Shown piece after piece: positions 11,540 through 38,765 of a stretch of DNA of 64,000 nucleotides. Each line of letters opens with the position of its first letter. Positions within the stretch are counted from its first letter, which is position 1. Made by a program: the position numbers and the translations under genes. The notes under the pieces are model-generated. The model worked only from the letters and a program-made list of their open reading frames with translations, ran no database searches and was not told where the DNA came from. The stretch covers positions 1 to 64,000 of the forward strand of contig JACPOW010000055.1 in assembly GCA_016191335.1 (NCBI GenBank). Direction: 5' to 3'. Source of the stretch: Elusimicrobiota bacterium (GTDB taxonomy: Bacteria > Elusimicrobiota > Elusimicrobia > UBA1565 > UBA9628).

Positions 11540-11609
11540 GGTGCCAGGCCTACCGATGTTTGCATTGGCGCCAGGCCTGCCGTGCGCAAACATCGGTAGG
11601 CCTGGCACC
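11540..11609. repeat. 24-bp perfect inverted repeat with internal related unit
   Basis: Arms 11540-11563 and 11586-11609 are exact reverse complements, separated by 22 bp. The spacer carries a third, degenerate copy of the core GCCAGGCCT in direct orientation (11570-11578). There is no T-run, so it is not a classical terminator. It looks like a mobile palindromic (REP/MITE-like) element. Confidence 0.85.
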
Positions 11610-11628
11610 AAGTTCGGCGCGGTATTGA

Positions 11629-21672: not shown

Positions 21673-21764
21673 GGGCGCGAGCGGGGTTTCCGCCAGGGGT
21701 CATTGGGCCTTGAGATGATTAGGTCCTTCGATTCGCGAAAAATTATCGTGTGCTTTCAATCATA

Positions 21765-21790
21765 ATTCACTTTCGGCGCCGAAAGTGAAT
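21765..21790. repeat. 26-bp perfect palindrome
   Basis: Two exact 13-bp arms (21765-21777, 21778-21790) with no spacer and a GGCGCC centre, in the AT-rich 222-bp gap between the divergent secreted gene and the HNH gene. It could be a dimeric operator or a cruciform; no T-run follows. Confidence 0.85.
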
Positions 21791-21881
21791 AACCATTATT
21801 TTAAAAGGGTTAATTTTGTTAAAACGCGGGATTTCAACGGCTCCTGGCGGAACAAATCGGGGGCTCGATCGTATGATAGTA

Positions 21882-34590: not shown

Positions 34591-35859
34591 ATGTCGAACC
34601 TGGAGCTCTCCTCCCGCTTCTTCCTCGAGCTGGCGGTCATCCTGGCCGTCTGCCGCGCCGTGACCTGGCTCGGCCGCCGCGCGCTGCAGCCGCCCGTGGT
34701 CTGCGAGATGGTGGCCGGGGTGCTCCTCGGGCCCTCCTTGTTCGGGCTGCTCGCCCCGGACCTCCAGGCCCTGGTCTTCCCGAAGGCGACCATGCCGCTG
34801 ATCTTCTCCGTCAGCCAGCTGGGCCTGGCGCTGTACATGTTCGTCGTCGGCCTCGAGTTCCGCCTCGACCTGCTGTCGAGCGGCTGGCGCGGCTCGGCGG
34901 CGGTCTCGATCGCGGGCATCGCCGCGCCGCTGGCGCTCGGCGGCCTGCTCGGCGCGCACCTGATGAAGGACCCGGCCTATTTCGGCGCCGGGGTCCAGGT
35001 CTGGCAGGCGGCGGTCTTCACCGGCGCGGCGATGTCCATCACGGCCTTCCCGATGCTCGCGCGCATCATCATGGAGCGCGGCCTGGCGGGCACGCGCATC
35101 GGCACCCTCTCGCTCGGCGCCGGCGCCTTCGACGACGCCGCGGCGTGGACCTTGCTCGCGGTCATCCTCGCGGCGTTCGAGTCGGACCCGCGCATCGCCG
35201 TGCTCGCGATCGCCGGCGGCGCGGCCTACGTGGCGGTCGTCGCCTTCGCGGTGCGGCCCGCCGCGCGCGCCCTCGTCTCCCGCGACCCGCGGGCCTCCCT
35301 GTCCCCGTCCGGCCTCGGCGCCGTGTTCATCCTCCTGATGCTCGCCGCCTGGTTCACCGACCTCATCCGGCTGCACGCGGTGTTCGGCGCCTTCCTGCTC
35401 GGCGTGGTCATGCCCAAGGGCACCTTCGCCGACGCCCTGCGCGACCGCATCGAGCCGGTGACCTCGGGCCTGCTCGTGCCGTTGTTCTTCGCCTTCTCCG
35501 GCCTCAACACCCGCCTCGACCTGCTCGCCGGCCCGGGGCTGTGGGGGCTCGCGCTCGCGGTCCTGCTCATCGCCACGCTCGGCAAGGGCGTCGCCTGCGG
35601 CGTCGCCGCGCGGCTCGGGGGCTATCCGGCCGCGGAGGCCGTGGCGGTGGGGACCTTGATGAACGCGCGCGGCCTCATGGAGCTCATCCTGCTCAACATC
35701 GGGCTCGAGCGCGGGCTGATCACGCCGACCTTCTTCACGATGATGGTGCTGATGGCGGTCGTCACGACCTTGGCCGCGAGCCCCGTCTTCGAGCTGGTCC
35801 GGCCCTTCCTCAGCCCCGGCGAAGGAGAGCGGCGGCCTTCGCCGGCGAAAGCCCGCTGA
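34591..35859 (+). CDS. CPA2-family cation/proton antiporter
   Basis: A 422-residue polytopic membrane protein with about 12 hydrophobic segments and no cytosolic RCK/TrkA domain. Family features: PPVVCEMVAGVLLGPSLFG, LGLALYMFVVGLEF, TGAAMSITAFPMLARII and LSLGAGAFDDAAAWTLLA, where the paired Asp residues (DD) are the ion-binding site typical of electrogenic CPA2 members. MNARGLMELILLNIGLE is the conserved C-terminal motif. It likely exchanges Na+ or K+ for H+. The 3' end overlaps the convergent HAD gene by 50 bp. Confidence 0.9.
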   Translation: MSNLELSSRFFLELAVILAVCRAVTWLGRRALQPPVVCEMVAGVLLGPSLFGLLAPDLQALVFPKATMPLIFSVSQLGLALYMFVVGLEFRLDLLSSGWRGSAAVSIAGIAAPLALGGLLGAHLMKDPAYFGAGVQVWQAAVFTGAAMSITAFPMLARIIMERGLAGTRIGTLSLGAGAFDDAAAWTLLAVILAAFESDPRIAVLAIAGGAAYVAVVAFAVRPAARALVSRDPRASLSPSGLGAVFILLMLAAWFTDLIRLHAVFGAFLLGVVMPKGTFADALRDRIEPVTSGLLVPLFFAFSGLNTRLDLLAGPGLWGLALAVLLIATLGKGVACGVAARLGGYPAAEAVAVGTLMNARGLMELILLNIGLERGLITPTFFTMMVLMAVVTTLAASPVFELVRPFLSPGEGERRPSPAKAR

Positions 35860-36475
35860 AGTCGCGGGCCTTGAGGCCCGCGTGCTTGAACTCGTCGGGG
35901 CGGTGGGAGGTCGTGATCGCGACCACCTGCATGCCCGCGCGCCGGGCGGCCTCCTCGCCGAGCAGGGAGTCCTCGAACACGACGCAGTCCTTCGGGGAAA
36001 CCTTCAATGCATCGGCCAGTAACAGGAAGGTTTCCGGGTCCGGCTTGCCCTTCGTCACCATGCCCCCGTCCACCACCGCGTCGAACCAGGGCCTCAGCTC
36101 CAGGCCGTCGAGGATGAACGTCACGTTGTCGTCCTTCGAGCCGGTGCCCAGGCCCACGCGGTAGCCGCCGGCGCGGGCTCCTTTGAGGAACGGCATCAGG
36201 CCCGCGGCGGGCGCGCGCTGCGGCAGGTAGAGCTTGCGGTACAAGGTCTCCTTGACGACGGCGGCGGCGTGCGCCTCCTCGGGCGGGACCTCGCGCTTGA
36301 AGTAGTAGCGCAGGACCTCGCGCGTGGGCATGCCCATCGTGTTCTCGCGGAAATCCCGGAGGTCGATGGTGATCCCGTGACCGAGGAAGAAGGCCGTCCA
36401 CGCCTCCTCGTGCGCCGGCATGTTGTGGCAGACGACCCCGTCCATGTCGAGCAGGAAGCCGATCTCGCGTTTCAT
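35810..36475 (-). CDS. HAD phosphatase, beta-phosphoglucomutase-like
   Basis: A 221-residue HAD-superfamily hydrolase. Motif I is LLDMDGVVCHN (two catalytic Asp), motif II LGTGSKDDN, the conserved Lys is in VTKGKPDPETF and motif IV is VVFEDSLLGEEAARRAGM. The helical cap between motifs I and II is of the subclass I type. It might dephosphorylate sugar phosphates or act as a mutase; the choice is not resolved. TATCCT lies 6 nt upstream of the ATG, and the gene is divergent from ygfZ. Confidence 0.88.
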   Translation of the reverse strand: MKREIGFLLDMDGVVCHNMPAHEEAWTAFFLGHGITIDLRDFRENTMGMPTREVLRYYFKREVPPEEAHAAAVVKETLYRKLYLPQRAPAAGLMPFLKGARAGGYRVGLGTGSKDDNVTFILDGLELRPWFDAVVDGGMVTKGKPDPETFLLLADALKVSPKDCVVFEDSLLGEEAARRAGMQVVAITTSHRPDEFKHAGLKARDFSGLSPAKAAALLRRG

Positions 36476-36501: not shown

Positions 36502-37320
36502 ATGGCTCTACGCGCGCTCGACGTGTCGCTGTGGGGGTTCTTCCGCTTCCACGGCCCCGACGCCAAGAAGTTCCTGCAGGGGCTCGTCAGCGCCGACCTG
36601 GGCAGGCTCGCGCCGGGCGTCTGCCTGCCCGCCTGCGTGCTCACGCCCAAGGGCCTGCTCGTCGCCGACTGCGAGCTGTACGAGGAGACGCCGGAGAGCG
36701 TGCTGGCCGTCACCCGCCCCGGCGCGGCCATCGGCTTCCTGAAGGCCTTCGAGAAGAAGATCATGCTGTCGGACTCGTCCCTGAAGGCCCTGCGCTCGGA
36801 GCGCGCCTGGCTCGTCGTCGGCGAGGGCTTCGACCGCGGCCTTCCCTGGCCGCGCCTGAGCGAGCCCGCCCGCCTGCTCCTGGGAGTGGACCCGCCCGAG
36901 GACGCCGACCTCATGAGCGACGCCGAGTTCGAGGCCCTGCGCCTCTCCTCCGGCTTCCCCTGGTTCGGCGCGGACATGAGCGAGGAGTCCCTGCCCCTCG
37001 AGGCGCGCCAGGAGGCGGCGATCTCCATGGAGAAGGGCTGCTACATGGGCCAGGAGACGGTGTCGCGCCTCGTCTTCCGCGGACACGTCAACAAGATCCT
37101 GATGGGCGTCCGCTTCGCCGGGGAGCCCGCGCCCGCGGGCGCCGTCGTCCTGCGCGGCGACCGCGCCGTCGGGCACGTCACGAGCTCGCTCGGAGGCCTC
37201 GGCCTCGCTCTGGTCCGCTTCGACGACGCCGTCCCCGGCGTCAAGGTCTCGGCCGAAGGCGAGGACGGGGAGCTGTTCCTGTTCTCCTCCTGGCCGAAGC
37301 CGCTCTCTAAGCCGGTCTAA
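36502..37320 (+). CDS. ygfZ: YgfZ/GcvT-like folate-binding Fe-S maintenance protein
   Basis: A 272-residue protein of the YgfZ/IBA57 family, which uses tetrahydrofolate in the assembly or repair of certain Fe-S enzymes. The diagnostic motif is EKGCYMGQETVSR with the conserved Cys. The N-terminal GcvT-like part has FHGPDAKKFLQGLVSADL and PKGLLVADCELYE. A C-terminal beta-barrel (GVRFAGEP ... VGHVTSS) follows. It is monocistronic with a leaderless promoter and a large palindrome after its stop. Confidence 0.92.
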   Translation: MALRALDVSLWGFFRFHGPDAKKFLQGLVSADLGRLAPGVCLPACVLTPKGLLVADCELYEETPESVLAVTRPGAAIGFLKAFEKKIMLSDSSLKALRSERAWLVVGEGFDRGLPWPRLSEPARLLLGVDPPEDADLMSDAEFEALRLSSGFPWFGADMSEESLPLEARQEAAISMEKGCYMGQETVSRLVFRGHVNKILMGVRFAGEPAPAGAVVLRGDRAVGHVTSSLGGLGLALVRFDDAVPGVKVSAEGEDGELFLFSSWPKPLSKPV

Positions 37321-37360
37321 TATAAGACCGCGCGTCCAGCCGGAGGCATGACCTGTCGGA

Positions 37361-37406
37361 GCCCCTCTTTGGGTGATGCCTGATCAGGCATCACCCAAAG
37401 AGGGGC
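37361..37406. repeat. 46-bp perfect palindrome
   Basis: Exact 23-bp arms meet at 37383/37384 with no spacer (centre CCTGATCAGG). It lies in the 127-bp gap between the convergent ygfZ and M28 genes. As RNA it would form one very stable hairpin from either strand, so it may act as a bidirectional transcription or RNA-decay barrier; no T-run follows. It may equally be a mobile palindromic element. Confidence 0.9.
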
Positions 37407-37447
37407 GGGACCGGTTGAGGGGGGCGGCGCGGTCCGGGACGGCCCGC

Positions 37448-38689
37448 TCAGCGCTTCGCGGCCGCGATCTTCGCGATCCCGCCGCCGGACGAGGTCTTGG
37501 CGAGCTCGACGGCGAAGGCGACGGCGAGCTTTGCGAAGGGCACCGAGTGCGAGGCGTCCCCGCCCGAGGACTCGAGCGTGTCGCGCTCGGAGTGGATCTC
37601 GCGGTTGCTTCCGTCGAAGGTGGACTCGAAGGCCATCGCCGCGGGGAAGCCCTTCTTGTTCCACGACGCGTGGTCCGAGCAGCCGTAGCCGCACTTGGTC
37701 GTGGACGCCTTGACGCCCGTATAAGTGTTGACGAGCTTCGCGGTGAAGGCGCTCAACGAGGCGTCCACGTAGTCGGTGAGCATGTAGATGTCCGGGCCCG
37801 AGCCGGCGAAGTTGGACATGTCGAACTGGATCACCCCGACGACCTTCTTCCCGCCCGAGGCGTAGCTCGCGGCGATGTCCTGCGAGCCGCGCAGGCCGAC
37901 CTCCTCGGCGGCGTAGCCCATGAACTGGATGGTGCGCTTGGGACGGATCCCGGACTCGGCCAGGACGCGGATCGCCTCGGTGAGCACGGCGATGCCGGAG
38001 GCGTTGTCGTCGGCGCCGGGCGCGCGCGCGGCGGAGTTGCCCCAGCCGTTGATCGAGTCGAGGTGGCCGCCGAGGACGACGATCTCGTCGGGGGTCTCCG
38101 AGCCGGGGATGGTGAGGATCACGGAGGGCTGCTTCCACGCGGAGTGCGCGAACAGCGAGGCGGAGGCGCCCGGGATGCCGGCGGCGAGCCCCGCCCAGTT
38201 GCCCTTCAGCCAGCGCGCGGCCTCGGCGCCGGTCTCGGCCTGGTAGTAGCGGCTTTGGTAGGCGGCCATCGTCGAGATCGTGCCGCGGATGCTCGCCTCC
38301 TTGACGGAGGAGACGAGGGGTCCGACGACCGCCTGCTGGTCGAGCGTGTAGGCGACGCGCGGGCCCATGCCGGCCGGGACCATCAACGCGCGGGCGGCGT
38401 CCATCGAGCCGTGCGTGAGGTAGCCGCCGCAGCGGTTGAAGCGGTCGTGCATGAACTGGGAGAGGAGCGGGAGCATGTCGGGGCGGACCTGGTACACCGC
38501 GGTGCGTCCGTCGGCGAGCACCGGCGCCGAGAGGGGGAAGCCCTTGGCCTCGGGACGGGCGAGGTCGGCCTGGTCGAAGGTGACCCACAGGTCGGCCGGC
38601 GCCTGCTTCTCGATCGACGGCGGGAAGTCTTCGGCGAAGGCGGACGACGCGGAGAGGAGGACGGCGACCATCAGGCCTATGTTGTTCAT
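37448..38689 (-). CDS. Secreted M28-family zinc aminopeptidase
   Basis: A 413-residue exported peptidase with signal peptide (NNIGLMVAVLLSASSAFA). The two-zinc site is complete: GGHLDSI (His, Asp), RAPGADDNASG (bridging Asp), FMGYAAEEVGLRGS (catalytic Glu and ligand Glu), IQFDMSNF (Asp) and YGCSDHASW (His). This matches leucyl aminopeptidase of the Aeromonas/Vibrio type. ATG 38689 is used because the signal peptide starts there; an in-frame start 12 codons upstream would add a non-signal extension. It would release N-terminal amino acids outside the cytoplasm. Confidence 0.93.
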   Translation of the reverse strand: MNNIGLMVAVLLSASSAFAEDFPPSIEKQAPADLWVTFDQADLARPEAKGFPLSAPVLADGRTAVYQVRPDMLPLLSQFMHDRFNRCGGYLTHGSMDAARALMVPAGMGPRVAYTLDQQAVVGPLVSSVKEASIRGTISTMAAYQSRYYQAETGAEAARWLKGNWAGLAAGIPGASASLFAHSAWKQPSVILTIPGSETPDEIVVLGGHLDSINGWGNSAARAPGADDNASGIAVLTEAIRVLAESGIRPKRTIQFMGYAAEEVGLRGSQDIAASYASGGKKVVGVIQFDMSNFAGSGPDIYMLTDYVDASLSAFTAKLVNTYTGVKASTTKCGYGCSDHASWNKKGFPAAMAFESTFDGSNREIHSERDTLESSGGDASHSVPFAKLAVAFAVELAKTSSGGGIAKIAAAKR

Positions 38690-38765
38690 GGGTCCTATGG
38701 TCCCAAAGAACGGCTCGCGCGTCAACCGATAAAACGCCCCGGCAGGGGCGTAATTTCGCCCCGCC

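Follow-up and report, generated by a model that had tools for sequence, protein, structure and literature searches.

We wondered how a perfect 46-bp palindrome comes to lie between the ends of two convergent genes in a draft genome of the Elusimicrobiota, and what it might do there. It occupies positions 37361 to 37406 of the window, the whole stretch of 64,000 nucleotides that was analyzed. An inverted-repeat search resolved it into two arms of 23 nt each (37361-37383 and 37384-37406) that are 100% complementary with a spacer of 0 nt, the longest of the 46 inverted pairs in the window. The palindrome falls into a non-coding gap of 127 bp (37321-37447). The plus-strand gene on its left (36502-37320) encodes a YgfZ/CAF17-like protein of 272 aa with GCV_T and CAF17 C-terminal domains, and its stop at 37320 lies 40 bp before the palindrome. 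The minus-strand gene on its right (37448-38725) encodes an M28 family peptidase of up to 425 aa whose start codon is uncertain; its stop, from 37448, lies 41 bp from the palindrome. At the composition of the window, 1.5e-8 perfect palindromes of 46 bp are expected by chance. A sequence-only reading of this DNA had described a perfect zero-spacer palindrome in non-coding DNA, placed between two convergent stops and far beyond chance, and the measurements bear this description out. Folding predicts a 21-bp stem with a 4-nt loop for the plus strand and, by symmetry, the same fold for the opposite strand; the 131 nt around the palindrome reach -82.1 kcal/mol compared with -53.6 +/- 4.1 kcal/mol for shuffles. 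A comparison with Rfam gave nothing above gathering score, and five sub-threshold matches to hairpins of the miRNA type lay far below the gathering scores.

A structure like this might be an assembly fold-back, a concern that the sequence-only reading had raised itself. We dismissed it because the flanks on the two sides of the palindrome differ and because a separate assembly, that of the congener G006, carries the same palindrome at this gene junction. The 46-bp palindrome is therefore real and not an artefact.

The source genome (G000) is a draft of ~3.66 Mb in 135 contigs with a completeness of 93.9%. Allowing up to three mismatches, the window contains the half-site at the palindrome only. 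Across the genome, the 20-base core of the half-site (up to three mismatches) lies at three places, on contigs 16 (the window), 112 and 128, with both arms present each time. The genome search for the half-site, set out beforehand, thus returned three palindrome sites and nothing outside palindromes. A 26-bp core with up to three mismatches was found in two of 97 genomes (G000 and relatives), namely G000 and G006, giving three copies in G000 and three in G006, the latter at two sites. A covariance model built from these six copies gave strong matches in G000 and G006 only (58 genomes, and four genomes with laxer filters), with at most 97 or 150 candidates scored per genome. Weak matches in G027 (E 0.03) and in G066 and G009 (E 0.4) were not counted as copies, nor were those from the laxer search in G015, G016 and one more place in G006 (E 0.6-9.6). 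We also considered a spread beyond the genus. A search of species genomes with the core pattern yielded 18 stretches, two of which are very probably contigs 11 and 128 of G006; judged by eye, the remaining 16 keep the searched core and not the outer arms, and were taken as chance matches or unrelated hairpins. The repeat had no match in a plasmid collection and a phage collection, and its core had none in viral contigs. As far as searched, the repeat is confined to two species of one Elusimicrobiota genus. In the literature searched, including the available portions of PMC6006769 and PMC7999016, palindromic repeats of this kind are not reported for Elusimicrobiota.

Across the six copies, 27 of 56 columns are invariant and the best-kept part is a GGGTGATGCC/GGCATCACCC core. 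The outer sequence is mostly unrelated among the copies. Nevertheless, the outer flanks of two non-orthologous pairs are alike for ~30 bp (p ~0.001 each, among 45 pairs). One of these likenesses concerns positions 37326-37360 of the window, which resemble the outer flank of copy b on contig 128 of G006 (score 30.5, p ~8e-4 before allowing for 45 pairs) and may, as a suggestion only, be part of the repeat. The flank likeness hints at an element of ~100 bp.

Comparison of matching sites in close relatives indicated that the presence of copies varies. In G000 the contig 112 copy is flanked by convergent genes; it is missing at the matching junction of G006, G008, G015 and G010, that is, in all four relatives in which the whole junction could be aligned (seven were compared; an in-order alignment of both sides was not obtained for G016, G007 and G005). 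The contig 128 copy lies between genes read as divergent; G016 lacks it at the matching site and has a gap ~100 bp shorter there. Conversely, G006 carries a double copy on its own contig 128, between tandem genes and in an insert of ~500 bp with an HTH gene, and the matching site of G000 is ~500 bp shorter and has neither copy. This insert encodes a 122-aa HTH_3 protein (contig 128:21294-21662; locus L123, 1294-1662), which is likewise absent from the matching site of G000. Since copies are missing at matching sites of relatives, the repeat has been gained or lost after the species parted. Insert sizes of ~100 bp agree with the weak similarity of the outer flanks. The exact edges of insertion are unreadable because the flanks are not conserved, and with edges so ill-defined no clear target duplication was visible by eye. 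The earlier suggestion of a repeated mobile element hence holds to the extent that the repeat is dispersed and differs in presence among close relatives; its mobile side is tempered by a count of only three copies, and no transposase for it was found. On balance, we favor with moderate confidence the reading that the palindrome is the 46-bp core of a small non-coding dispersed repeat, perhaps ~100 bp long with decayed outer flanks, which spread as a non-autonomous hairpin.

What might have moved such a hairpin? Of 19 genomes of the genus, 14 have Y1 transposase genes (PF01797); G000 gave six matches. Among 25 Y1 loci fetched from the same genus, 21 of the 23 that were testable have terminal inverted repeats (TIRs), and most of these TIRs start with a GGTGNCAG- or GTGTCAG-type sequence. 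Solo palindromes consisting of two TIRs back to back were found with one pattern three times in G000, once in G006 and five times in G016, further variants occur in a sampled 686 kb of G000, and some are perfect over arms of 24-30 bp. As Y1 loci carry TIRs and solo TIR palindromes exist, hairpins of this kind do arise in the genus. A limited literature search turned up no account of such TIR-bearing Y1 transposase genes and solo TIR palindromes in Elusimicrobiota. Besides the 46-bp palindrome, G000 contains several palindromes of 48-68 bp that are perfect or nearly so; in most of these, the two ends of a TIR-flanked Y1 (HUH) transposase gene stand back to back. Stems of at least 23 bp are confined, among the hairpins listed from the 686 kb, to the 46-bp palindrome and six that belong to the Y1 TIR type. 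Long palindromes are thus routine in this genome. The sequence-only reading had held that such a palindrome is hard to keep in cells with SbcCD-type nucleases. This expectation finds no support: G000 keeps palindromes of 48-68 bp, and the E. coli work, in the part of the source available, dealt with palindromes of 246-480 bp (PMC4245961).

The solo TIR palindromes match the 46-bp palindrome in size, zero spacer and location and, in some cases, in perfection of the arms. One could accordingly regard the latter as a true member of the TIR repeats of the genome, a TIR-TIR palindrome left by a Y1 (TIRYT) lineage that has lost its transposase gene. We consider this improbable. Most recognized TIRs are of the two types named above, and the palindrome arm has no significant match among 11 Y1 terminal repeats (best p 0.085 against shuffled TIRs) and no strong match in 23 Y1 loci (best score 22, compared with a self score of 46). 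Furthermore, the palindromic core may have additional weakly conserved flanking sequence. No autonomous element with the palindrome arms was found: in G000 and G006 the half-site occurs solely inside palindromes, and a 17-base half-site with one mismatch, searched in 44 genomes of the family, lay inside the palindromes of G000 and G006 and gave single one-mismatch matches in G003, G020 and G024. The count of zero half-sites outside palindromes, in a draft that is 93.9% complete, also bears on a parent DDE transposon with the same ends. Because the arms match none of the Y1 repeats compared and no gene flanked by half-sites was found, the palindrome family could not be filed as a TIR or REP repeat. 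An apparent Y1 relic at copy b of G006, where the following sequence resembles the leaders of Y1 genes, was dropped because the shared leader is a promoter-like motif that precedes many genes across the genus.

This motif, AACTTTT-N-TCGTATGAT, occurs in nine of 19 genomes, at 10 places in G000, 14 in G016 and 11 in G006, and a reversed control pattern had no match. Among loci L184-L213 it precedes recA (L207), sigma-70-type regulators (L188, L196), an HNH gene (L200) and an ORF6N gene (L202), and it also stands before several Y1 transposases, such as that of L212. The motif may mark an ECF-sigma regulon that links mobile genes with DNA repair. Other inverted repeats were noted as well. In the window, GGYGCCAGGCCT-type inverted repeats cluster in a stretch between two genes (11545-11611); a solo TIR palindrome at G000 contig 135:57110 is of the same type, as are repeats that precede the Y1 gene of contig 101. 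At G000 contigs 101:4976, 26:17540, 112:32563 and 81:46477 there are further zero-spacer palindromes, 22-32 bp long and with CCGG-type centers; they are mostly near stop codons, and some of them recur.

Two further readings are difficult to reconcile with the number and placement of the copies. A nucleoid signal, as had been suggested earlier, finds no support in three copies in 3.66 Mb. A symmetric binding site for a regulatory protein would fit the dyad symmetry and the well-kept GGGTGATGCC/GGCATCACCC core; we nonetheless regard it as highly improbable, given that the copies number only three and are found not just at gene ends but also in an upstream region. Usual operators are shorter than a symmetry of 46 bp. 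A possible operator is a separate palindromic motif around TTCACTTTCGGCGCCGAAAGTGAA, which was found in upstream regions at window positions 21758-21797 and at G000 contig 128:15288 and was also seen at the corresponding place of G016.

Position relative to genes offered another angle. In the 686 kb sampled from the ~3.66 Mb of G000, with gaps of 15-600 bp considered, hairpins scoring at least 11 were present in 11 of 25 convergent gaps, 19 of 133 tandem gaps and one of 59 divergent gaps. Three dinucleotide shuffles per set gave 0/25, 0 to 1/133 and 0/59, respectively. The difference between convergent and divergent gaps is significant (p 2e-6). Several stretches had been fetched because they hold palindromes or Y1 genes, and the test was repeated with the gaps of five palindromes known beforehand left out; the counts were then 9/23, 16/130 and 1/59 (p 2e-5). 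Genes for these gap counts were called with a home-made program that overlooks some of them, such as the one at 35810-36475 in the window, and the gap of the contig 128 copy falls outside the counts because of the size range. In tandem gaps, 16 of the 19 hairpins lie nearer the upstream stop. REPs are similarly described as avoiding divergent gaps and sitting at gene 3' ends in the accessible text of PMC3733652. Hairpins may be useful at 3' ends, or they may simply be tolerated there.

As hairpins crowd at gene 3' ends, an RNA role of the 46-bp palindrome at this place is possible. It might be a two-way 3'-end hairpin, acting as terminator or stabilizing mRNA and kept by selection at the convergent junction, with dispersal being secondary. 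Besides the preference for convergent gaps and the lean toward upstream stops, the ability of both strands to fold agrees with this, as does the YgfZ/M28 junction in relatives. There, the G006 copy is identical to the window copy at 41 of 46 positions (left arm 23/23, right arm 18/23), while the gap around it aligns poorly between the two genomes. Different inverted repeats occupy the junction in other congeners, a long one in G016 and a short one in G001; that of G016 (contig 50, after 72610; locus L017, 2314-2480) has ACCACAAAGACACTAAGACACAAAGAACG arms ~50 bp apart. The same junction in G015 lacks such a hairpin, however, and several further observations weigh against selection for a 3'-end function. 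The palindrome is followed by a T-run on neither strand and the terminator scan made no call there. One of the three G000 copies lies between genes read as divergent and the two copies on contig 128 of G006 lie between tandem genes. In the six-copy alignment, 84.1% of cells are paired compared with a shuffled mean of 84.9%; as pair changes do not exceed those of the shuffles, they lend no support to a conserved or selected RNA fold. We therefore judge a hairpin kept primarily by selection to be possible, though rather unlikely.

In anatomy and placement, the palindrome family resembles a TIR or REP repeat. The TIR repeats of TIRtrons (TIR-associated tyrosine transposases, TIRYT) are presented, in the available part of Di Nocera et al. 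(2013; PMC3733652), as short repeats, palindromic or inverted, that lie scattered between genes, some as dimers, alongside Y1 transposase genes. The palindrome family is likewise dispersed, extragenic and made of inverted repeats; it differs in its three copies, in an arm unrelated to the TIRs tested and in that no Y1 gene with its arms was found. With REP/RAYT systems it shares the extragenic position at gene 3' ends away from divergent gaps, as given in that text. In contrast to REPs, the flanks of the six copies share no GTAG- or CGTC-type tag (by eye, GGAG stands at the foot of the C16/C11 site only), three copies each in G000 and G006 compare with tens to thousands, and the 21-bp stem exceeds the 5-13 bp listed there for GTAG families. 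Like MITEs, the family is a non-coding inverted repeat with presence/absence polymorphism at matching sites; unlike them, it has shown neither a parent transposon nor a target duplication, in a draft genome and with ill-defined edges. With bidirectional intrinsic terminators it has in common a stable hairpin between convergent stops, but it lacks the T-runs and also occurs in other gene arrangements.

Returning to the small dispersed repeat as the preferred reading, we propose that it would have spread as a non-autonomous hairpin element, moved probably by an HUH/Y1-type enzyme acting on single-stranded DNA, as is thought for TIR/REP repeats, or alternatively by another transposase that has since been lost. 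In G006, the copy at the YgfZ/M28 junction shares its left arm with the window copy but has a decayed right arm, and we therefore propose that template switching within the hairpin (quasipalindrome correction) maintains or renews the exact symmetry of the window copy. Template switching is described in E. coli as making imperfect inverted repeats more perfect, in the part of PMC7202029 available. Between two gene ends the repeat would persist if hairpins there are harmless, or useful as a 3'-end hairpin for both transcripts, and harmful in promoters. At this junction, G016 lacks the 46-bp palindrome although it is closer to G000 than G006 is (YgfZ identity to G000 of 93% and 82%, respectively), which requires loss or replacement in G016.

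The small dispersed repeat thereby accounts for a striking perfect palindrome. It is ordinary in kind, an extragenic palindromic repeat, but forms a new family. Palindromes of 46-68 bp proved to be routine in this genome, and TIR-flanked Y1 transposase genes together with solo TIR palindromes are now documented in Elusimicrobiota. A bolder idea, to which we give little credence at present, is that hairpin families, among them the present one and the TIR palindromes of Y1 elements, replace one another at the same junctions in sister species as interchangeable transcription-end hairpins. Gene 3' ends of the genus would then be exchangeable sockets for mobile palindromes, and transposon ends would supply terminators. 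If hairpin families do swap at gene 3' ends in this way, these genomes would be a natural test of mobile hairpins becoming terminators.
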